Source: Trichodelitschia bisporula
Taxonomy: Eukaryota; Ascomycota; Dothideomycetes; Phaeotrichales; Phaeotrichaceae
Reading direction: 5' to 3'
DNA length: 64,000 nucleotides
NCBI GenBank assembly: GCA_010356995.1
Contig: ML996694.1
Coordinates: 57,139 to 121,138, forward strand
Positions 19,752 to 64,000 of this stretch are shown here, piece by piece (the stretch's first letter is position 1; each line of letters begins with the position of its first letter). The position numbers and the translations under genes were made by a program. The notes beneath the pieces are model-generated. The model was not told the DNA's origin, ran no database searches, and saw only the letters and a program-made list of their open reading frames with translations.

Positions 19752-20598
19752 CCTCATCTCTCTGGAAACACGATGGTCAACGGTATCATTTCTCTGGTGC
19801 ATGATGAATGCTGTGGACGGTGCTTCCCCGAGTATTGGGCGCTTCACCATCTGAAGTTGAAATAAGGTTTGCGAAAATCCGGTGAGCGTTCAGACGCCAC
19901 ATGAAAGAGGTATTCCCATACCGTGGACAGTAATGCACAGAGAGATATTCCCTTGGGAATCTGCTTTGACATGAGGCTTCGGCGATTGGATCAAGCTCTA
20001 CGCTCTGGAGCAAGAGCGACGCCGATAGACTCCCGGGACAAGCGACCAACTATGTCCCAAGTTCCAGAGGTCGAACATTCACCCGCTCGGAGCTCTCCGA
20101 TATTGCCGCTGAAGCGTGACTTGCTGCAAAACCGAGTAGATACATATGTAATGCAAGCAGAATGTTTAGTACATCGTCTTGCTCATGTGATGCAGTAAAT
20201 CTTACATACGCTCCTTTTAGAGTGGAAGAACCTGCTTGCAGCTTTGCAGCCTAAGCCTGACTTTGACTTCCGCCCTTCCAAGCGGGCACGGCGGGGTTGA
20301 ATCGGTCGCGCCTGTCAACAGCGAGTTCCAAGGGCTAACTTAAAGTATCATGTTCCCCCTCCTTCCTCATCTTTTGCTGTGTGATAAACATGTCATTGGA
20401 GGAGAGGGAAGTAGACGGCTACGCTTTTATTCGGATGGCCCTTGGTCCTTTCTGCAGCTTTCGAGAATGTTGAGATTTTATTGGCTGGAAGCGTCCAGGC
20501 GAATTTTGAACTTTTATATAAACTTGTATATAAGGAGGGCGCATTCCGTTGAGAGAACAGGTCGGAGTAAGGCTACTGCGTTTTGGGTCGCATTCGGC
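19752..20598 (+). repeat. Repeat A, left copy (inverted copy at 62524-63392)
   Basis: 847 bp whose reverse complement recurs at 62524-63392 with only scattered differences. It carries two TATA-like boxes near its right end and runs directly into repeat B, the upstream region of the Est1-type gene. I see no terminal inverted repeat or transposase inside it. The right-hand copy has an extra 11-bp duplication (GGTCGGAGTAA twice). Confidence 0.9.
20515..20533 (+). promoter_or_regulatory. Twin TATA-like boxes upstream of Est1-type gene
   Basis: TATATAA at 20515-20521 and again at 20527-20533, about 330 bp before the ATG at 20860. Position and sequence suggest a core promoter with a long leader; no direct evidence of transcription start. 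Confidence 0.4.
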
Positions 20599-20912
20599 TC
20601 AGTGCTGGCCTCGGCGCAGGGGGAGAAGCTGAGCGACATTTTAAGCCGCAAGGCAACGGTGCGCGAACCACGCTCCGGCCCTTGTAACCACCAGCGCGGG
20701 CCGCGCACCGCCGAATGCGTATATGTTCAATCCAACTCCCTCGGATGATGATGATTCTGGTGCCATTGCTCGCACTTTGTTAGATTCGGTCGCTACCGGC
20801 TTTCGACGCTTTCTAATCAAATCAAACTTTCACAACTTACTCTTCAAGACCGAGCCTAAATGCGTTCCCAAGGATCTGAACTCGGCACGTTCACCGCAAT
20901 GCGTGCCAGTCC
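20569..20912 (+). repeat. Repeat B, left copy (direct copy at 63592 to window end)
   Basis: Covers the leader and first coding bases of the Est1-type gene. The right-hand copy is nearly identical apart from two insertions (about 19 and 50 bp) and a few substitutions. The first 30 bases overlap the end of repeat A, so this short stretch occurs three times in the window (20569, inverted at 62524, and 63592). Confidence 0.9.
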
Positions 20913-23895
20913 CGCATCTTCCATGCTGCGAGATAAAGATGCTTCGATGAAGGGGAGCCTTCCATTGGAAAGATCGGCCTCTTCTCAAGACGGAAGGTCG
21001 AACCATCGGCCGTCGTTGGATGGAACTCCCAGAAACAGGCGCACATCGTCAGTTCGAGAACTCCTTCCACACCCTGCCTCACCTAACGTCCCATTAGCGA
21101 CACTTCATCTCAAGTCTGTCATCAGGTGTCGCATGGTTCTCCTTCACCAACGGTCTCTCCTGCAACCCGTATGCGCCACGCTCCTTCGCCCACGAAATCG
21201 ACCAGCCATCCGTCGAACCAACGTTCACCTCACGCTCACTCCCCTCCTCCGACCGTCGATCATACATCTCCAACACACAACATTTCCTTGCCGATGAAAA
21301 CTAAGAATTCTTTGAACCAGTCCTCGCCTCTTCCAACTGTCTCTCAAGCATCTCCCATACGTCACAATCCTGCCATGAAAAAGAAGACCAACCTCCATTC
21401 AAATCAACATGCCCTTCACACCCACACACAGCGCACTCGTATGTCGGTCCCTGACGGTATCAAGGCTTCGGGTCCTAAGACTCCACGCCCTGTTCCTCCG
21501 TCCCAGTCGAAGAGGCGAGGAAATCAGTCCAGACCACCAGAGCCTGATCACCCACGCGACCCTCGATGGCCTGCCCTTGCTCGCCAACCGGAATCGAGGA
21601 CGATATCGCCCGAACAGCTGGCTACGGAGGTCAAGTCTATATACCAGGGGCTCACAATGGTCGAATCGAAGTGTCGACACGTCGACAAGGCCCAGGTCGC
21701 GGCGTTGAATGATGGTGCCCCTCTGGAGGATATTCACTTCCAAGCCCTTCTTGCCCTGCACAGGACCCTTCTTCACGAACATCATGACTTCTTCCTCGCC
21801 AGCCAACACCCGATGGCGACGCCGGCGCTTCGAAAACTCGCGCAGAAGTATACGATGACGGCGAGGATGTGGAAGCATGGTATTCATTCTTTTCTGGAGC
21901 TTCTTCGGTACCGGCTTCCAGAGAGCCTTGAATACATGCTCGCCTTCATCTATACCGCGTACCAAATGATGTGTCTTCTGCTGGAAACAGTACCCTCCTA
22001 TGACGAGACCTGGATCGAATGTTTAGGGGACCTCGCAAGATACCGCATGGCCATCGAAGACGAGTGTATGCAGACGCGGGAGATCTGGGCTGGCGTTGCG
22101 CGTTCTTGGTATACTAAGGCGGCCGACCGTTCTCCTACCGTCGGCCGGCTATTCCACCGCCTCGCCATCCTTGCACGTCCTTTCGCCGTTCAACAACTTC
22201 ATCTCTACAGCCTCTCACTCACCAGCGTTATCCCCTTTCTCAGCACGCGTGATTCCATCCAATCTCTTCTTGATCCAATGCTCGCACGAAATGATGCAAC
22301 ACCAATGGGAATTCCCGAAAACGACGTTGAGTTTATCACAGCCATAACCATCGTCTTCAAGCGACAAAAGCTCGACGCCTTCCATCATCACGCTGATAAG
22401 TTCCTTAAATCTCTCGATTCCAGCTGCCAGGGTATGGGGCAGAAATGGCGGGATCATGGCTCGTTTATTGCCTTCACATTGGTTGCTTCCCTCTTTGATT
22501 TCGGCTTCGATAACCCCCTGCGACGGTTGTACCATTGGGGCAATCTCAAGCGGATCTCCGAGCAAAATAAGCCACATGCAGAAGACGATACCCAGGGCAA
22601 CCCGCCGGCGCCAACAGCTTGGGAGCCCTTGCAGCCGCTCCCGCCTCAGGATCCCGAAACCGCCAAGGTCTCCGAGTACGAACTCTTTCTCACAACTCAT
22701 ACGTTTGCTGTTGTCCTCTCTCGCCGTTGCGACAGGAATTGCTTACCTTTTGTACACGTGCTTTGCTGTTTCTTGTATTCCTTGACATCCGTTCCGCGTA
22801 CCGAGTTTTCTATTGCGTATACGTCGTCTGCGAACCGCATCTTAGAGGCTCAGCCCTGGTCTGCGCTCTGCGATTATGCCAATGCTCTGGACAAATCGGA
22901 AAGGGAGGATGCGAGTTATCAGGGTCCAGACTTCGTGCGACCAGAGGGAGGCAATGGACCTCTGCCCGAGGACTTTAAGCTCAGGGGTCAGATTTATGCC
23001 GCCCATGGCTACTACCCCGGCGACTGGTTTGAGGGTAAAGGGATGGGTGTGGACGACGATGAATGCTTGATTGAACGGGCAAGCACCTCTATCATCCGAG
23101 CCGGTCGCGTCTTATGGCTGATGCATCGGCTGGCCGCTGTAACAACCACTGCACTCCACTTTCTCAATTTGCTGATTTGAACAGGATGAACTATATATTG
23201 GATTCGATCAGGCGAACAAGCAGTTCTACGTCGTCGCAAGCTCTGCTAGTCCAAGCCTTAGCGCAGGTATCATGGCGCCAGAAAGTGTTGATGACAATGT
23301 CGACCTCGTCATGTCGGATGCTTCGCTGCCCGAGCCGATGCAGAACGATATCCCTTACAATGTACGGTATACCCCTCCCTCCCTTCCATGTCGCTAAACT
23401 TTTAAGGTTGTTGTTGTGGACAAGAGCACGCTTGAACGGGATGAGTTCGAGGGAGTTGTGCAAATCCACTGGGACGTAATTGTTCCCTTTGAATGTAGGC
23501 TTTATCAACTCTGTCTAGCAAGACTACTCACGCTCGCAGTTGCCTCCCGTCTGCCTAAGGACTCGCTTGCCGAGAAGCGATTGCGTGATGCCATCAAAAA
23601 TGGAAAGAGCAATGTCCGCGTCTGGACTCAGGACGGCGACGACCGGACGGACGAGCTTCGGGTCAAGGACGAAGACGAGATGGACATAGACGGCCAAAAT
23701 ACGTCCATGCAGGACCAGGAGATTGTCATGAAAATTGCACGGAGGGCCACTGATCTGAACCTGGACGGGAAAGAGGGCCAGGCTAAGACCGTGCTTCTGA
23801 CTGAAGATGGCGATGTGGAAACCAGGGCCCTTGGCAGAGGACTCAAAGCGATGGCCTCCATGCTTGCCATCAAGTTACGCGGCGGGAATGGGTGA
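20860..23895 (+). CDS. Est1-type DNA/RNA-binding protein with degenerate C-terminal PIN domain
   Basis: Proposed exons: 20860-21047, 21098-23138, 23185-23361, 23407-23494, 23540-23895 (949 aa). Intron 1 (donor GTCAGT, branch CTAAC, acceptor TTAG) is the weakest join; the others are 45-46 nt, and intron 4 is in frame and optional. Seen: Ser/Pro-rich basic N-terminus (1-225); Est1/SMG-type helical domain about 237-455, with ALHRTLLHEHHDFFLASQHP, then MWKHGIHSFLELLRYR and YRMAIEDECMQ; PIN-like region from 803 (VVVVDKSTL, keeping one Asp; LLTEDGDVE near the end), where the middle acidic residue expected in PIN nucleases is not apparent. Family role: 14-3-3-like/TPR fold of Est1, SMG5-7 and Ebs1, in telomere or mRNA-decay complexes. 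A second copy starts at 63948 and relics lie at 58-61.3 kb. ATG 20723 is an alternative start in another frame. Confidence 0.75.
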
Positions 23896-24125
23896 TTCAA
23901 CGTACCTCCAGTGCTCCTTTTGGGTTGTCCATGTTCTGGATGGAGAGCCATGCCGTTGGTGGGCTCCGACAGAAAATGCGTGACTCAACTTCCATCCCAT
24001 GTTGGTAGATCCTGACGGAAGCACGTGATTCAACATCCATGCCATATTGGTGGAACTTATCCTTGGATCGGCAACAATGCCATGTTGGTTTAACTTGTCT
24101 CTGGACCGGCAACCATGCCGCTGAT
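23891..24125 (+). repeat. Degenerate tandem repeat downstream of Est1-type gene
   Basis: Recurring elements GTGATTCAAC, CATGCCATGTTGGTGG and GACCGGCAAC in irregular order, with spacings of roughly 38-90 bp. It begins at the stop codon of the Est1-type gene. The copies are diverged. Confidence 0.6.
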
Positions 24126-41235: not shown

Positions 41236-41292
<57 letters not shown>

Positions 41293-56480: not shown

Positions 56481-58077
56481 AAAATGGAACCGGAAAAAAA
56501 ACGACTAGAAACGACCACGACAATATCGTTGTCATGGTGTTTTACGATCTTATGATTGAGACGAGCTGAAGTGGAGGGCTTTGCTGCTTGATCCACGAGT
56601 TCGCGCGGCTTTTTCGGAGGATGGGGTCTGGGAATCCTTTTCTCGCTGGGACATGTGCGCCATTTGTGGTGCGGCCTGGGAGTCAAAGGTTCCTCATGGC
56701 AACGCCCGGCTCTGGATCATTCCTGCGTGTCTTTTTTTTATGTCCGGTGGCGCTTTGCTACTGCCGAGGGGGGATCAGGCGCTATATCCAATAGACGGTT
56801 TGTAATTTTTTGCGGTTTTTCTTTCTTGGGTCCCGCGGTGGGACATCTTCTCACCTCTGAAGCGCCTGCTTCGCCCAAAAGCTCGGGGTTTCGTCTGCTT
56901 CGCCGTTGTGTTTTTTGCTGCCATTTTGTGCGTGGGACCCGTGGGCCTTTTTCTCTCGCCTCCCACTGGGTTTCGGGCTGCGTGTCTGGGTTTGTTTTCG
57001 GTCTTCGTGTCGTCATTTGAAGCGGAAACACACAGCACACGTATTGCAAGGCGTTATTGGCGTTTTGTGGTTCGCGTTTTTGTGAGTGCGGTGCAGAGGC
57101 GGCCGTTTGTGTAAGTCACCAGGCCTTCTTTTCCGGCTCGGGCTTTGTCGCTGTCGTTTTTGGTTGCTGAAAAGCGAGGGGAGGGAGACTTCTTCAGGGG
57201 AAAGGATGACGCCGTGCGATGAGGAATGGATTTTATCGCCTGCATCTTCTTTCGACTGGGAGTCTTCTTCGCCTCGTCGCATGGTGGCAATGGTTGCTCT
57301 TGCCGTGTGTGCGCCGAGACGTGGACGGACGGGTTTGGGCTGGGGGGAGGTTGGCTGGACATTGGGGATGGCTGGATGGGGTAGATTCCACTCGAGCTGG
57401 GCGAAGACGGGTGGTTTGGAGCTGGTGCAGCCGATAGGTCTAAGGCCTTTTGGGGGATCGGGGGCAATGGTGAACGTCTAGGCATCATTAGGCTCAGAAT
57501 GAGGATATATCTTACTCTCTCAGTGTGCTTGCTGTGGTGATTTGTCGACTTGGGAGGAGTTGGTGAGGGTGTTAGGTATGTTTCATTTCTTGTTCTGGGC
57601 CCGCGCTGATGGTTTTAGGTGCAGAGGCGAGGGATTGGGACCTGATCTGCATATCGTGGGAGTGGTACGTGCAGGTGTAAGTGCCGCTCTGAGGACGAGA
57701 TTATGCTGATGGACGGCGATAGGAAGCCCGTTCCAATGCCAGCATGTCGAACCAAACCACCGAACCATGGCGGAATGTTATTGCGAACTCTTTTCTAAGT
57801 TGATTATCGGTATGTCGTCTCCCCCGCGCGTAGCTGATTGGCCGCCGCCACCCGCGCGGCAATCTTACCCCGCACTCGCACGGGCCCTACCGCATTGGCT
57901 CGTGCCTCAACGTCACCTCTTCCGTCCACGACACTCTTCCTCACCATACATACCCTCCCACACTCTGGGTTCTGACTCCGCTGCGGATCTGGCTTACGGC
58001 GGTATGGACATGGGTGTTTGGTGAGTGTGTGGTTATGCTGTGTTCTATTTGGGCGGTAGCTGATGGTGTGTATCCTT
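56481..58077. other. Intergenic region, no supported gene
   Basis: 1.6 kb: 3' flank of the PP1 subunit gene, then T/G-rich sequence without convincing coding capacity. A short open stretch at 57739-57798 begins MSNQTTEPWRNVIANSFLS but stops immediately. Confidence 0.5.
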
Positions 58078-58400
58078 GATGGAAGGGTTTGTCGTCATTT
58101 GGCTGTTTTTGCGAGGCCCGCAGGCTGGGCGACGGCGGAGAAACGGAGCTGAGCTAGCAGCTTGGTTTAAGAAGGTGGTGAGGTGGGCTTCTAGGTTGGA
58201 AGGGTTTATCGTCATTTCCCTGTTTTCGCGAGTCCGGAGCTGGGGGACGGCTTCGTAGCTCACCGAGCAAGCATCTTGGTACACGAAGGCGGCGGACTGT
58301 CCTCCTGCAGTTGGAAGGTTTTATCATCATCTCGCCCTTTGCGCTCGTCCGTTCGCTGGATGACAGCTTCGTCTCTCGCGAAGCAAGCAGCGAGGATGTG
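58078..58400 (+). repeat. About 116-bp tandem repeat, nearly 3 copies
   Basis: TGGAAGG(G)TTT recurs at 58080, 58197 and 58312. Each copy continues with a similar TCGTCATTT...GAC(A/G)GC pattern. Copy 2 contains GGTACACGAAGGCGGCGGAC, resembling the Est1-type coding sequence near 22110, so at least part derives from that gene (inference). Confidence 0.7.
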
Positions 58401-58494
58401 GAAGCGTGGCATTCATTCCTTTCTGAAACTTCTTCGCTGTCGGATTTGACTGAGGATTTGACTGACATTTTCTCAAGACCGTTCGCTGACCTCG

Positions 58495-58790
58495 GGCGTT
58501 TCTGGAGAGCACCGGGATCGGATGACTGAAGATCTAGGAGGAGCCCGAATGGCCTGCTTTTGGAGAGCCCGTGGACCGGATACCTGGATACCTAGGGAGA
58601 TCCAAACAGCCTGCTTCTGGAGAGAACTTGGACCGGATGCCTGGGAGACCTTGATGGAGCCCAAATGGCCTGCTTTTGGAGAGCCCATGGACCAAATGCT
58701 CGAGGAACCCAGGAAAATGCAAACAGCCCGCTTCTGGAGAGAACCTGAACGGAATGCCTGGGAGACCTAGGAAGACCACAAATGGCCAGA
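58495..58790 (+). repeat. 58-bp tandem repeat, 4-5 copies
   Basis: CTGCTTcTGGAGAG-type cores are spaced 57, 59 and 58 bp, each followed by GGACCGGATGCCTGGGAGACCT or a variant. Alternate copies resemble each other more (AAATGGCC... versus AAACAGCC...), suggesting duplication of a two-unit block. The GGACCGGATGCCTGGGAGACC part resembles the TWIECLGDL segment of the Est1-type gene (22010-22036). Confidence 0.75.
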
Positions 58791-58904
58791 ACGCGTGTTG
58801 AGGCCTCCTGGTGCCGCACCCAGGCAAAGAGGGACTTCCAATGCCATGCTCGGGAATGAAGTACGCTCTGTTAAGGAGGTCTCTTTCAACTTTTTTTATG
58901 ATAT

Positions 58905-59462
58905 TTCTAGCATCCCTCAAACACTTTCAAAGGCTTATGGCCCTCCCCCGGACTCTCCTTCACGAGCACCATGACTTCTTCCTCGTCAGGCAGCATCTGA
59001 TGGCGATGCCAGCGAGGATGTGGAAACATGGCTTCCATTTCCTTCTGAGCTTCTTCGCTACCGGGAGGTGGAAACATGGAATACCTTCCTTTCTGGCTCT
59101 TCTTCTCTACCTGGGGGTGGAAACATGGCATTCATTCCTTCCAGAGCTTCTTCACAGCCGGGATGTGGAAACACGATGTTCATTCCTTCCTGGGACTCCT
59201 TCACTGCCGGCTTCCGGATAGCCTTGGATACATGCTGGCCTTCATCTATACAGCGAACCAAATAATGTGTCTTCTGGTGGAGACCGTTCCTTCCTTCGAC
59301 GGGACCTGGATCGAATGTTTGGGAGACCCCGCGAGGTACCGCATGGCCATCGAGGGTGAGCGTATGCAGACCGCGACATTTGGACTGGCGTTGCACGTTT
59401 TTGGTATACGAAGGCGTGCGACATTTGGACTGAAGTTGAACGTTTTGGTATACGAAGACGGC
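58905..59462 (+). pseudogene. Relic of Est1-type gene, middle part
   Basis: Matches the intact gene around 21760-22125, with frame breaks. Recognisable pieces: LLHEHHDFFLVRQHLMAMP (58953), four tandem WKHG units (59013-59210), and MLAFIYTANQIMCLLVETVP to YRMAIEGERMQT (59225-59375). It ends in two 45-bp copies of the segment corresponding to 22082-22124 (59371-59462). Confidence 0.85.
59013..59210 (+). repeat. 48-51-bp tandem repeat derived from one Est1-domain helix, 4 copies
   Basis: Units begin near 59013, 59064, 59114 and 59162, each of the type GATGTGGAAACATGG...TTC(A)TTCCTT...CTTCTTC...CCGG. The intact gene has a single such unit (21863-21914), coding for MWKHGIHSFLELLRYR. Copies are diverged and not all in the same frame. 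Confidence 0.9.
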
Positions 59463-59499
59463 CGGCCGTGGGAGACCGATCGGCCGACTTCATCACATA

Positions 59500-59830
59500 C
59501 CCGTCCCAAGACTCCAAGACCTGTTCCAGCGTCCGAGTCGAAGAGACGAGGAACCCAATCCAGACCCGCAGAGCCCGATCTCCCACGCGACCCCGGATGG
59601 CCTCCTTAATCCATGACCATATCCCCCGAGCAGTTGGCCACAGAAGTCAAGTATATATACCAGGGGCTCACAACGGTTCGAGTCGAAGTGCGGTCACGTC
59701 GACAAGTCCCAGGTCGCGGCTTTAAACGATGGTGCCCTCCTGGAGGATCCTCACTTCCAAGCCCTAGTTGCCCTCCACCGGACCCTTCTTCACGAGCATC
59801 ATGACTTAATCCTCGCCAGCCAACATCATC
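59500..59830 (+). pseudogene. Relic of Est1-type gene, N-terminal part
   Basis: Corresponds to 21470-21806 of the intact gene (KTPRPVPASESKRRGTQSRP, ISPEQLATEVKYIYQGLT, then the HRTLLHEHHD region) with an in-frame stop (59608-59610) and frameshifts. It lies downstream of the relic of the middle part, so gene order is scrambled. Confidence 0.88.
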
Positions 59831-59919
59831 TTGCCATTCTTGCTCGTCCCTTCTCCCTTTACGAAGACCATGACTTTTTTCTCACCAGCCAGTATTCGAT
59901 GATAACGCAGGGGGTTCCC

Positions 59920-60004
59920 AGAAATGAGCAAAAATGCACGATGCCGGCGAGGATGTGGAAACATGGCATTCACTCCTTCCTAGAGCTTCTTCACTCGCGG
60001 GTTC
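59920..60004 (+). pseudogene. Single WKHG unit of the Est1-type gene
   Basis: One more copy of the helix unit, preceded by ATGCCGGCGAG as in the intact gene near 21855. It is followed directly by unrelated coding sequence (TCP11-type fragment). Confidence 0.8.
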
Positions 60005-60313
60005 TGATGTAGGAACTTGCGGGGATTATGTGACTTTGTCAGTATCGCTATGTGGCTGGCGCAGCTGTTGAAGCGGCACTGCGCGCCCATGAGGGACAGC
60101 ATGGTCGATCACATGGTGGATCGGCTGCGCGCTGGGATTCCGCCGGACGTACCCAAGGGACTGTTGGAGCTGTTTGGCGTTCTGGAGTCCATGAAGCTGG
60201 GTTGTATCCGTTTGCGTTGGAATGCTAGGATCTAACAGCGCAGGATGTGGCTAACCACCAAATCCGGCACCTCTACTGCCTCATTGTGGACACCATCTCG
60301 TTCGAACAGGCAT
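60005..60313 (+). pseudogene. TCP11/Sok1-type gene fragment embedded in Est1-type relics
   Basis: The frame reads AQLLKRHCAPMRDSMVDHMV, then DVPKGLLELFGVLESMKL up to 60199, an intron-like gap (60200-60243, ending CTAACAGCGCAG), then DVANHQIRHLYCLIVDTISF. This is the central signature of the TCP11 family (fungal Sok1-like proteins). No start or stop belongs to it. The donor side is off by one base (CTGG before GTTGTA), so splicing would not restore the frame. The next base run returns to an Est1-type WKHG unit. Confidence 0.75.
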
Positions 60314-60720
60314 GTGGAAACATGGGAAATGTCCTTTTTTGGAGCTTCTTCGTCACCGGGACTCTCCTCCACGAGCATCATGACTTCTTCCTCGCTAGCC
60401 AGTACCCGATGGCGACGCGTGCGCTCCCCAAACTCTGGCAAAATGTATGCGATGCCGGCGAGGATGTGGAAACATGGAATACCTTCACTTTCTGGAGCTT
60501 CTTCGCCGCTGGGGCGTGGAAACATGACATCCATTCCTTCCTGGAGCTCCCTCGCTGTCAGACTCGATTCCGAACATTTGTCAACGCCGTTCACTAAATG
60601 ATGGATCACCTCAGGCCTCTTGGACAGCACTTGGACCGAATGCCTGGGGCATCTTGGAAGATACCGAATGAACATAGTCAGGCAAAGCAACTTCAGGACC
60701 TTGCGGGGAACGAAAATGCG
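60314..60720 (+). pseudogene. Further Est1-type relics
   Basis: Contains a WKHG unit (60310-60360), LLHEHHDFFLASQYPMATRA (60364-60420), two more WKHG units (60466-60560) and a short piece resembling ECLG(D/H)LGRYRMN (60630-60680). Orientation is plus, the frame is broken and order differs from the intact gene. Confidence 0.82.
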
Positions 60721-60917
60721 CTCCGCCAAAGACGTCTCTTCGGCTTGTTTCGCCACTCATACGACCTGACGCGCCAAGAGGACACGATCCACAACACCTG
60801 TATGCGAATAGGTACACGCGCTTCAAATCAGAAGGACGTCTAGGTCTGCAGTGACGACGCACCATCTGGATTTGACCGAAAGCGGCATTTTCCATGGAAG
60901 CTGACAAGCCGACTCCC

Positions 60918-61338
60918 AATACCCGTGGTACCTGAACAGCTGGCGACAGAAGTCAAGTCCATATATGCCGGCCTCACTATGGTCGAGGGAACTCAACAAG
61001 CCGACAAACGCTAACGACAGCGCCGGGAGATAGTCTTATCTCCACGGTACGCGCTTCCAAACCCCTATCGCCGTCTATGGAATACTGGTCACCCACGAGT
61101 ACCTCGACCGCTTCTTCGCCTCGTAGTATCCCGCCGGTCTGGACCGGGACACGGCTAACTTCCATAGGAAATGCCACTTCCGCCTGCTCTGGACCGGGAG
61201 ACCGTTAACTTCTATGGGGAATGCCACTTCCGGCCACTCTGGACTGGGACACGGCTGAGTTGCCTCGACCATAGTGAGGCCGGCATACATGGACTTCACT
61301 CTTGCAGCCAGCTGTTCAGATACCGCGGGTATTGTGGG
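60918..61338. repeat. Inverted repeat of an Est1-type N-terminal fragment
   Basis: The plus-strand arm (60918-60986) reads PEQLATEVKSIYAGLTMVE; the second arm (about 61262-61338) carries the same sequence on the minus strand. Each arm extends the match into flanking ACAATACCCG-type sequence. The spacer is about 275 bp and includes a 50-bp tandem repeat. Confidence 0.85.
61139..61260 (+). repeat. 50-bp tandem repeat, 2.4 copies
   Basis: Units begin CTGGACCGGGA at 61139 and 61189, and CTGGACTGGGA at 61239; the first two units share AATGCCACTTCCG. Lies between the arms of the inverted repeat. Confidence 0.85.
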
Positions 61339-61586
61339 TCGGCACGAATGCCAAATTTTTTTTTTCGAAAAGCAATAATCTCGAAGCACTCCAAGCGACA
61401 GATACGAAACCATACCTGCCCAAACTGGAAGTTTCGCAGATGTCCGACCAAGGAATGGAAAACAGCCCGAACCGTAGACTCAGTACAACGTATGTCAGTC
61501 CACCACAAATAGAAACAATGAAACCCAACTTAAAGAACTTGGGCTTGTGTGGTGACCGTTCACAGTTTCTCTCATGTGACTTCGTC

Positions 61587-61894
61587 CTAAGGGTTCTTGA
61601 CGAATCTCTCCATCACGGTCAAGCCACGTGTGTCCTCCCCATCAGCCAGTCGAACCGTATTGACGTCGAACTGGATGCCCATCTGCGCCAGCACGGCAAG
61701 GTGCCTGTTCGTGTGGGCTGAGGCGCTGGTGCTTGGTGGGTGGGCTGCGGTGATTTGGTCATGCCTGGCAAGGTTTTCGGCCGTGAGAGGGCTGTAGCGG
61801 TGTTAGTGTACGGACTGCTGATGGGTGGGTGGAGTGAAAGGTGTTGGTTGTAAGGGAGGGCGAAGACTTACTTCGACGACTGGTTCTGTGCCAT
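61587..61894 (-). CDS. Small spliced gene, 75-residue hypothetical protein
   Basis: Two exons, 61894-61872 and 61791-61587. The 80-nt intron has consensus signals: donor GTAAGT, branch CTAAC, acceptor CTACAG. The protein begins MAQNQSSN-PLTAENLARHD, has a Ser/Ala/His linker, then QMGIQFDVNTVRLADGEDTR, and ends VMERFVKNP. The intact spliced frame with ideal signals and non-repetitive composition argues for a real gene. I do not recognise the family. There is no signal peptide, membrane segment or cysteine. It lies on the opposite strand to the surrounding Est1-type relics. Confidence 0.65.
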
Positions 61895-61942
61895 GTGCGC
61901 GGTCGTGGTGGTGGTATTGGTGGCAGTCGTTGTTGAGGTGGG

Positions 61943-62050
61943 TATGGATGACGAAGAGAGCAAGCGAGTTGAGGGGCGGCTATGGATAACGAAGAGAGCA
62001 AGCGAGTTGAGGGGTGGGTATGGATGACGAAGAGAGTAAGAGAGTTTAGG
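61943..62050 (-). repeat. 38-bp tandem repeat upstream of the small gene, about 2.8 copies
   Basis: Units start at 61943, 61981 and 62019 with TATGGATGACGAAGAGAG or a one-base variant. On the strand of the small gene the repeat is pyrimidine-rich and lies 49-156 bp before its ATG, so it is in the promoter or leader. Confidence 0.9.
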
Positions 62051-62523
62051 AATGGAGGCTGAGTTGTTGCTAAGGGATTGGAAGGTGTAAACTGGAAGTG
62101 GTGATAGGGAAGTTGCTCGGCGGGACATGTCTTTATATCAAGCACATTTCACAGTTTTTACGCCTGCAACCTGCGATGGGAGGCAGTAGACCATACTTGC
62201 ATTATGGCTGATAGATCCAGTCGAAACCAGCGAGCCGTGGTGCGCACCTTCATGGCGGGGGGTGGGTGAGGTGCGATGAGATAGTGTACATCAAGGGCGA
62301 ACCCGTCGGTAACTAGGGTGCAATTCGTAGCGTGTTTTTTATTGGCCGCACACACGCGTCAAGGGCGGATCCCACTTGCAGATACACCCCGGTTGTGGTG
62401 TCGCTAAATTCATCTTGCGGTGCGCGAACCGTCTGCCTGAACACATCGAAGCAAGTTGCAGGATATAAGCTTACTTGGGGCTCAACGACTGGCGTGTGGT
62501 GGATGTACGCACGTCCCCCCTGC

Positions 62524-63392
62524 GCCGAATGCGACCCAAAACGCAGTAGCCCTTACTCCGACCTTACTCCGACCTGTTCTCTCAACGGAATGCGCCCTCT
62601 TTACCTCTTTATATACAAGTTTATATAAAAGTTCCAAAATCCGCCTGGACGCTTCCAGCCAATAAAATCTCAAAATTCTCGAAAGCTGCAGAAAGGACCA
62701 AGGGCCATCCGAAAAAAAGCGTAGCCGTCTACTTCCCTCTCCTCCAATGACATGTTTATCACACAGCAAAAGATGAGGAAGGAGGGGGAACATGATACTT
62801 TAAGTTAGCCCTTGGAACTCGCTGTTGACAGGCGCGACCGATTCAACCCCGCCGTGCCCGCTTGGAAGGACGGAAGTCAAAGTCAGGCTCAGGCTGCAAA
62901 GCTGCAAGCAGGTTCTTCCACTCTAAAAGGAGCGTATGTAAGATTTACTGCATCACATGAGCAAGACGATGTACTAAACATTCTGCTTGCATTACATATG
63001 TATCTACTCGGTTTTGCAGCAAGTCACGCTTCAGCGGCAATATCGGAGAGCTCCGAGCGGGTGAATGTTCGACCTCTGGAACTTGGGACATAGTTGGTCG
63101 CTTGTCCAGGGAGTCTATCGGCGTCGCTCTTGCTCCAGAGCGTAGAGCTTGATCCAATCGCCGAAGCCTCATGTCAAAGCAGATTCCCAAGGGAATATCT
63201 CTCTGTGCATTACTGTCCACGGTATGGGAATACCTCTTTCATGTGGCGTCTGAACGCTCACCGGATTTTCGCAAACCTTTATTTCAACTTCAGATGGTGA
63301 AGCGCCCAATACTCGGGGAAGCACCGTCCACAGCATTCATCATGCACCAGAGAAATGATACCGTTGACCATCGTGTTTCCAGAGAGATGAGG
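62524..63392 (-). repeat. Repeat A, right copy (inverted relative to 19752-20598)
   Basis: 869 bp matching the reverse complement of the left copy over its whole length, with few substitutions and an 11-bp duplication. The two TATA-like boxes now face left, away from the second Est1-type gene copy and toward the small minus-strand gene. Confidence 0.9.
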
Positions 63393-63499
63393 GAGACTTC
63401 TGCCTTGCCCCCTTTAGGGCGTCCTCCGATCACCTTTTGTCGCCTTTTTTTCGAGTCTTCGGCCTTGTCATCTATTCCAGATACATCGGACTCGGCCAT
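63393..63499 (-). pseudogene. Truncated coding fragment interrupted by repeat A
   Basis: On the minus strand, ATG at 63499 opens MAESDVSGIDDKAEDSKKRR and then KVIGGRPKGGKAEVS, running into repeat A at 63392. The basic GRPKGG segment is of a kind often seen near the N-terminus of BED-finger/hAT-type transposon proteins, but that assignment is weak. This ~200-bp stretch is absent next to the left copy of A. Confidence 0.35.
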
Positions 63500-63591
63500 T
63501 TTTCCACGGCCGCCCGATGATGCGATGGCCACAGGCTACCCGAAAACATCGTGGCCTCGCCAAACCACAACATAAGCTACAACTCAACCTG

Positions 63592-64000
63592 AAGGCTACT
63601 GCGTTTTGGGTCGCATTCGGCTCAGTGCTGGCCTCAGCGCAGGGGGGAGAAGCTGAGGCGAAATTTTAAGCCGCAAGGCAACGGTGCGCGAACCACGCGG
63701 GATTACGTGTTGGCCCTCGCTCCGGCCCTTGTAACCACCAGCCCCATGAATGGAGGCCCACCAAACAACTGCTTTCGGGCGTCGAGGGCCGCGCTCCACA
63801 GAATGCGTACATGTTCAATCCAACTCCCTCGGATGATGATGATTCTGGTGCCATTGCTCGCACTTTGTTAGATTCGGTCGCTATCAGCTTTCGACGCTTT
63901 CTAATCAAATCAAACTTTCACAACTTACTCTTCAAGACCGAGCCTAAATGCGTTCCCGAGGATCTGAACTCGGCACGTTCACCGCAATGCGTGCCAGTCC
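63592..64000 (+). repeat. Repeat B, right copy (direct copy of 20569-20912)
   Basis: Nearly identical to the left copy except for about 19 bp inserted after GAACCACGCG, a longer (about 50 bp) insertion after AACCACCAGC, and scattered substitutions. It continues to the window edge. Confidence 0.93.
63948..64000 (+). CDS. Second copy of Est1-type gene, first codons only (runs off window)
   Basis: ATG at 63948 corresponds to 20860. The 53 visible bases differ from the first copy by one substitution (Gln to Arg at the fourth codon) and keep the frame. Whether the rest is intact cannot be seen. Confidence 0.7.
   Translation, partial: MRSRGSELGTFTAMRAS

Follow-up and report, generated by a model that had tools for sequence, protein, structure and literature searches.

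The relic region at ~58.1-61.35 kb of the analysed window (64,000 nucleotides of Trichodelitschia bisporula contig ML996694.1) is probably a graveyard of tandem Est1-type gene copies, formed by birth-and-death turnover beside a young member of the family (gene B). Nineteen direct and one inverted piece match gene A, the closest intact relative in the window, and all of them come from 21472-22206, i.e., from 735 of its 3036 bp. The original prediction of a copy of the intact gene scrambled by one local re-replication or template-switch process was not supported: the divergence between the pieces is of the coding type and points to diverged coding paralogs, no fewer than two or three, as sources, not to a recent scrambling of gene A alone.

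Gene A occupies 20860-23895 on the + strand (boundaries as originally predicted), 34 kb upstream of the relic region, and its main open exon (21171-23180) has an ORF of 669 codons. It matched the EST1A structure 4um2 in PDB (E 3.5e-6), 3zhe (E 0.069) and the family PF22695 EST1-like_DNA_bind (E 7e-4, under its curated cutoff), and is thus predicted to encode an Est1-type N-terminal helical domain. Relatives of its exon protein were not confirmed in viral_contigs or genome_contigs, both non-fungal collections in which absence says little; no relatives from other genomes were found, so nothing was dated or polarised. Among the matches listed in the literature on Est1-type genes there were no such relics.

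Segmental alignment of 57501-62000 with 20840-24000 produced 24 segments scoring up to 170, against null maxima of 19 per segment in 20 Markov shuffles of the region and 21 in eight other stretches of the window. Nineteen + strand segments and one - strand segment fell in 58274-61317. Three of them, in the 58-bp repeats, scored inside the nulls (15 for 58501 and 58604, 21 for 58718) and were kept because they share the register of the 58-bp units. Four further segments, at 57697 (- strand), 57921, 59830 and 61085, were marginal (scores 15-17), and the one at 57921, corresponding to gene 22671-22702, would be the sole C-terminal piece. The one at 59830, tested alone as 59826-59856, matched gene 22161-22187 with 0/1000 shuffles as good. 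Neither segmental alignment nor tblastn gave a convincing piece of the C-terminal half of gene A in the relic region; the tblastn search, in which the exon protein of 21171-23177 (lacking the last exons) was compared unfiltered with 56501-64000, found nothing past residue 349 at E <0.5. On the - strand, at ~57.1-57.7 kb, it gave weak N-terminal matches (residues 3-131, E 4e-4 to 0.009), which were taken as low complexity.

The relics follow each other on the + strand. Relic 1 (58080-58376) is a 117-bp-spaced duplication, whose second copy corresponds to gene 22104-22206. Relic 2 consists of gene 21859-21917 at 58388-58446 (score 39, 49/59) and of a 58-bp minisatellite at 58501-58788 with ~5 units and a 116/117-bp dimer, from gene ~21982-22053. 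Relic 3 begins at 58922-59153 with gene 21735-21823 and three helix units of ~21861-21913, and continues at 59154-59489 with gene 21858-22127 (82% identity, score 170; Ka/Ks 0.16 to gene A), followed by 22083-22150 again, as a 45-bp tandem duplication (score 27). Relic 4a (59503-59856) joins gene 21472-21572, 21588-21808 and a 27-nt piece of 22161-22187, and is followed directly by relic 4b (59857-60004, gene 21771-21918). Relic 5 (60310-60675) has a helix unit, gene 21763-21907, another helix unit and 21994-22054, and relic 6 (60931-61072) corresponds to gene 21609-21755 at 68%. The inverted piece (gene 21664-21612) comes last in the row, after 21609-21755, as part of the right arm (61256-61343, - strand) of an 88-bp inverted repeat, whose left arm is at 60908-60995 (+ strand; 88% identity, spacer 260 bp). 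Relics 2 and 5 have in common a linker and following sequence absent from gene A (score 50 for a null maximum of 15.5, and 19.5 for one of 15, respectively). The pieces are 68-89% identical to gene A and most repeat pairs inside the region 72-89% alike, values that do not look like an assembly error.

The intervals 58789-58921 and 60676-60930 matched neither gene A nor its flank, and the ORFs tested there had no Pfam family. A 50-bp repeat at 61131-61256 did not match gene A (100/200 shuffles as good) and was borderline against its 3' flank (10/200), and 61073-61255 matched gene 21544-21566 weakly (12/200 shuffles; 2/300 on a narrower target).

Several separate exon segments had been predicted to have become tandem repeats of their own, and alignment of the units to the gene A exon bears this out: helix, 45-bp and 58-bp exon units each occur in a short tandem array. 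The fourfold helix unit of about 50 bp is present at ~59012-59206, its fourth unit being the start of the longer piece, and the twofold 45-bp unit at 59373-59457. Failure of the 58-bp unit to align to the gene would have spoken against the prediction; its consensus did align to the exon (0/200 shuffles as good), as did units 1, 3 and 5 (4, 2 and 0 of 200), although units 2 and 4 alone did not (43 and 51 of 200). What had been described as one 116-bp unit, partly of gene origin, proved to be two features. One is the 58-bp array read as a dimer (58500-58787), with a consensus that matches gene A (3/200); the other is the duplication spaced by 117 bp at 58080-58389, of which the second copy matches (0/200) and the first copy alone gave no match (133/200 against the whole gene, 19/300 against 22090-22206 only).

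The predicted disorder of gene pieces over 3.3 kb was likewise seen, with a row that runs back and forth (22104-22206, 21859-21917, 21982-22053, 21735-21823, and so on). In an order test of 17 items, which counted the 58-bp units as one and omitted the inverted segment and the four marginal ones, 4/16 neighbouring steps were collinear with gene A against 0.97 expected at a tolerance of 40 nt (43/5000 permutations as good); with 2 steps at 20 nt (243/5000) and 4 at 60 nt (207/5000), collinearity was only modestly above chance. The back-and-forth order would suit a single local re-replication or microhomology template-switch event that scrambled one Est1-type gene and made the minisatellites, and the same holds for the 27-nt piece set between 21808 and 21771, the inverted piece with its 260-bp spacer, a foreign Tcp11 insert and a second inversion at 62520-63392. 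Such an event should have drawn all pieces from one template at one time, and we consider it improbable since pieces that cover one and the same stretch of the gene have diverged mutually in the manner of coding genes. Nor do the repeats favor it: of the four arrays, only that of the 58-bp unit is bracketed in gene A by a direct repeat of 5 bp or longer, namely the 6-bp GACGAG at an offset of 57, the other three having at most 3-4 bp at the three offsets inspected for each. Junctions between the relics have decayed too far for reading.

The coding-type divergence was apparent in mismatches to gene A, which over 16 of the 24 segments (leaving out the three 58-bp units, the four marginal segments and the inverted one) numbered 79/549, 81/552 and 188/542 by codon position; the third-position excess held whether the site was A, C, G, T or CpG. 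A RIP-like decay by C>T and G>A changes was dropped as an explanation, the changes from gene to piece being 45 C>T and 54 G>A versus 62 T>C and 41 A>G. In a Ka/Ks comparison of 19 segments, with codons that are stops in either sequence skipped, synonymous divergence from gene A exceeded nonsynonymous in 13/19 pieces (p<0.05). Among the pairs sharing at least 60 gene positions, 8/9 were synonymous-biased against each other (p<0.05), although the nine pairs share pieces and hence are not independent, and one of the biased pairs lies inside the 58-bp array; Ka/Ks over the same gene interval was 0.13-0.30 in the 7/9 pairs where it was defined. The pair 59857-60004 and 60359-60505 had a Ks of 1.44 and a Ka of 0.19 (p 4.7e-6), which places relic 4b, as judged from these sequences, with a different paralog than 60359-60505. 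Together, the third-position excess and Ka/Ks well below 1 indicate that the pieces stem from separate paralogs, each of which had evolved as a gene before its death.

The minisatellite units are less telling. Differences private to one copy were third-biased in the longer pieces (25/232, 33/235 and 57/230 by codon position) and without significant bias in the units (12/111, 14/110 and 17/106), an apparent contrast with a small sample of units behind it; pieces 58274 and 59423, with 7-8 columns per codon position each, were left out of this split. A further analysis of the pieces behind the third-position and Ka/Ks case covered 19 segments, with 60931-61072 cut to 60986, and only columns with at least three copies. 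Among eight further helix-unit pairs one was clearly synonymous-biased (59113/59154, p 0.0059) and one was at 0.05, so the short helix units appear to say little either way on coding-type divergence. Inside the 58-bp array, 58604 and 58718 differed more at synonymous sites (p 0.018), which counts against a purely post-death origin of this array.

Between relics 4b and 5 lies a fragment of an unrelated gene of the Tcp11 family (60050-60310, + strand), matching PF05794 with E 3.2e-12 over 60050-60229 (profile positions 101-150, weakly on to 174); a continuation in another frame had E 0.18, under the cutoff. Relatives of this piece were not confirmed in viral_contigs, a non-fungal collection in which absence says little. 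Downstream, 62520-63392 on the - strand is an inverted copy of 19752-20602 from upstream of gene A (96.6% with gaps counted), and, after a 199-bp spacer (63393-63591) with no clear match upstream of gene A in a comparison run without shuffles, 63592-64000 on the + strand is the leader and start of gene B, a copy of 20569-20912. In gene B 337/347 aligned bases are identical, with gaps of 75 positions in total, including one of 22 and one of 41; its start at ~63948 is near-identical to that of gene A, and it runs off the window with the first 53 bases of the reading frame inside. Neither the Tcp11 fragment nor gene B with its inverted upstream region (62520-64000) had figured in the original prediction.

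The adjacency of fragments from two unrelated genes, together with the presence of inverted repeats, could recall a gene-capturing transposon that put the fragments together. This is extremely unlikely, however: the 88-bp inverted repeat, itself of gene origin, encloses 260 bp only; a search down to 16 nt for inverted repeats around the region gave just short, weak ones (19 nt at 79% and 24 nt at 71%); and the pieces tested matched no transposase family.

A graveyard of tandem copies agrees with the arrangement of the pieces, 19/20 of which share the + orientation, as does gene B 2.6 kb downstream; paralogous copies are thus contiguous and mostly in one orientation, and the codon statistics indicate that the relics descend from copies with a history as genes. 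Full-length copies would also be expected, though not strictly, to leave relics of every part of the gene, and here only 21472-22206 is represented. Full-length dead copies at Ka ~0.1 should leave C-terminal pieces, so the failure to find a convincing one counts against the graveyard reading, and the sources may be partial 5' duplicates instead of full-length copies. Repeated duplications of the 5' end, in which only the promoter and the N-terminal half were copied from a full gene, today represented by gene B, and N-terminal fragments were left upstream, would account for this restriction, for the position of the pieces upstream of gene B and nearly all in its orientation, and for the rearranged upstream region of gene B. 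They are nevertheless rather unlikely, as the coding-type divergence needs a long life in working genes before truncation and the upstream DNA 19752-20860 has no match at 57.5-62 kb (BLAST, E 1e-3).

Common limits of the pieces might also mean that short family members, encoding the N-terminal helical core alone and themselves under selection, gave rise to the relics, some perhaps still read, in line with open frames at 59049-59606 and 59617-60009, a 177-codon ORF at 59076-59609 and the 48- and 45-bp units being multiples of three. Against this, frames shift along the region, pieces are joined out of gene order, the length of the 58-bp unit is not divisible by three and no Pfam family was matched by either open frame (sole hit E 0.24), which makes such members very unlikely. 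A standing hotspot, at which the N-terminal helical segment was partially copied over a long term upstream of a live copy by repeated fold-back and template-switch repair, is a doubtful possibility; if true, it would jointly explain the single 735-bp source, the two short-spacer inversions, the 27-nt piece and the Tcp11 filler.

In the preferred reading, a graveyard beside gene B, several paralogs, presumably full-length, that diverged while still coding would have stood head to tail, and after death would have been cut down by deletions to parts of one N-terminal helical segment, fused in places, with at least one break filled by foreign gene DNA (the Tcp11 piece). The short tandem duplications (48, 45, 58 and 117 bp) would have arisen by slippage or break repair, probably mostly post-death, and part of the array structure would have been copied again between relics 2 and 5. 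Minisatellites are reportedly born by slippage between short direct repeats, a view ascribed to Haber and Louis 1998; the 58-bp unit with its GACGAG repeat is like such cases, whereas the 48-, 45- and 117-bp units, with no flanking repeat >4 bp in gene A, differ. Template switching may have made individual junctions: a templated insert, an inversion and a mixed order of pieces could all be products of FoSTeS/MMBIR rearrangements as outlined in PMC3449122, although, unlike those, the pieces here come from more than one source and junction microhomology is putative.

The nearest known systems are the yeast tandem gene arrays, 11% of which contain gene relics according to the account in PMC2822764, where the hemiascomycete array definition allows one heterologous gene between copies. 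As in the arrays outlined there, which are read as birth-and-death, degenerate copies adjoin paralogous ones; unlike them, the relics here are very short, come from one 735-bp segment and carry small tandem repeats of their own, and the neighbouring copy, gene B, is visible by its start only. The truncated pseudogenes of Hemiascomycetes, explained in the relevant part of PMC2876123 by DNA-level deletion, with four inactivated by inserted mitochondrial DNA, are similar in being gene remains shortened by deletion; 3' and 5' truncation are equally common in that account, and here only an internal N-terminal part was found.

On present evidence the locus resembles a commonplace gene-family graveyard in which small tandem duplications abound. 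It clearly illustrates that the seeming scrambling of one gene can amount to overlapped remains of several related genes, which the statistics on codon positions separate. Should other strains show the N-terminal restriction too, the conversion of exon pieces into minisatellites within a decaying gene cluster could be studied at this locus.

The segmental alignment of 57501-62000 against 20840-24000, which covers the Est1-type gene at 20860-23895 (+) (gene A, the closest intact relative within the window), produced 24 segments, the best of them scoring 170; by comparison, 20 Markov shuffles of the region stayed at or below 19, and eight control stretches of 4.5 kb from elsewhere in the window at or below 21. 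The main pieces were recovered independently by BLAST. With four marginal segments left out, 19 pieces on the + strand and one on the - strand traced to roughly one quarter of gene A (21472-22206). The sequence of gene A resembles Est1/SMG6 (4um2 EST1A, E 3.5e-6; the Pfam hit was below threshold), and the gene content of the window, which includes TTI1, SIN1, CBM21 and others, with short introns, suggests a fungal host. Two small tandem repeats are present directly downstream of gene A (23955-24119), and an unusual unbroken run of 54 G at 41238-41291 is possibly an assembly or sequencing artefact.

The mismatches of 16 pieces to gene A by codon position (79/549, 81/552 and 188/542; Fisher p 6e-20) showed a third-position excess, which held for each base and for CpG. 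Because part of it could stem from gene A's own evolution, the pieces were compared with each other: synonymous divergence exceeded nonsynonymous at p<0.05 in eight of the nine piece pairs that had 60 or more positions in common, the ninth (58922/60359) giving p 0.059, whereby these values are rough, since pieces are shared among pairs and sites were taken as independent. For 59857 vs 60359, Ks was 1.44 and Ka 0.19. Eight more short helix-unit pairs were mostly uninformative (p for synonymous bias 0.0059 in one, 0.05 in another and higher in six). Single-copy private differences retained the third-position bias in the longer pieces (p 1e-4), and in the small sample of minisatellite units it was not significant (p 0.5), each value representing a separate within-group test rather than a direct contrast; 58604 and 58718, both in the 58-bp array, do carry synonymous bias. 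Most simply read, these data point to several coding paralogs as the source of the pieces and, as the weaker half of this reading, to tandem amplification mostly later than paralog divergence.

From left to right, we infer about six remains, at 58080-58376, 58388-58788, 58922-59489, 59503-60004 (perhaps two), 60310-60675 and 60931-61072, and 61256-61343 is an inverted copy of 60908-60995. At 40-nt tolerance, 4 of 16 steps were collinear with gene A where 0.97 were expected, and 43 of 5000 permutations did as well. Since the result varied with tolerance (2 steps and 243/5000 at 20 nt; 4 steps and 207/5000 at 60 nt), the collinearity is suggestive, not strong. Between two helix units lies a fragment of a Tcp11-family gene, 60 residues long (60050-60229; PF05794, E 3.2e-12), extending weakly to ~60310 in a different frame (E 0.18); an intron or a frameshift may explain why the frame changes around 60200-60240. 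A 177-codon ORF (59076-59609) spans helix units and two Est1-type pieces joined out of order, and the open frame enclosing it had no Pfam match.

Both the 48-bp helix units and the two 45-bp copies aligned directly to the exon. The Est1-type exon origin suspected for the 58-bp unit was confirmed by units 1, 3 and 5 and the array consensus, which matched gene A 21982-22053, while units 2 and 4, each taken alone, did not match gene A. The 117-bp unit found over 58500-58787 by the tandem-repeat finder is a dimer of this array; a separate duplication with 117-bp spacing is located at 58080-58389, with a gene A match in its second copy only. Four elements of 58387-58896 (helix, linker, 58-bp-type unit and the sequence after it) were found again at 60505-60750, and therefore part of the repeat structure was itself duplicated. 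Across four arrays and three offsets, only the 58-bp unit was flanked in gene A by a direct repeat of at least 5 bp (GACGAG, offset 57); among random 35-nt windows, a fraction of 0.006 per offset holds a repeat of at least 6 bp, or ~0.07 across twelve tries. Further right, a 38-bp tandem repeat of ~3 copies (61932-62050) did not align to the Est1-type gene in our searches.

The segment 62520-63392 is an inverted copy of 19752-20602 (96.6% with gaps counted), so that near-identical, mutually inverted 0.85-kb segments are present upstream of both Est1-type copies. The leader and start of gene A are copied directly at 63592-64000 (from 20569-20912; 337/347 aligned bases identical; 22-base and 41-base insertions are among the differences), and thus a second Est1-type gene begins at ~63948, with 53 bases inside the window. 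A 32-bp stretch occurs in inverted form at 62520-62551, the edge of the right-hand 0.85-kb copy, and 63594-63625. A helix unit (59166-59182) and the inverted segment's edge (63365-63381) share 17 nt in inverted orientation (94%), probably by chance.

The out-of-order fragments and exon-derived minisatellites of the original prediction are real, but its view that such a picture lies beyond ordinary processes, which called for a local re-replication or template-switch process, is unsupported: a dying paralog cluster accounts for the data. Paralogs of one cluster would die at different times, losing DNA to deletion, taking up filler and acquiring small tandem duplications. This leaves one main fact unexplained, namely that neither the segmental alignment nor the translated search of the region gave a convincing match to the C-terminal half of gene A, which a partial 5' duplication, the best rival on this point, would cover. 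For the decaying paralog cluster a parallel exists in yeast, where tandem arrays containing gene relics are documented (PMC2822764).
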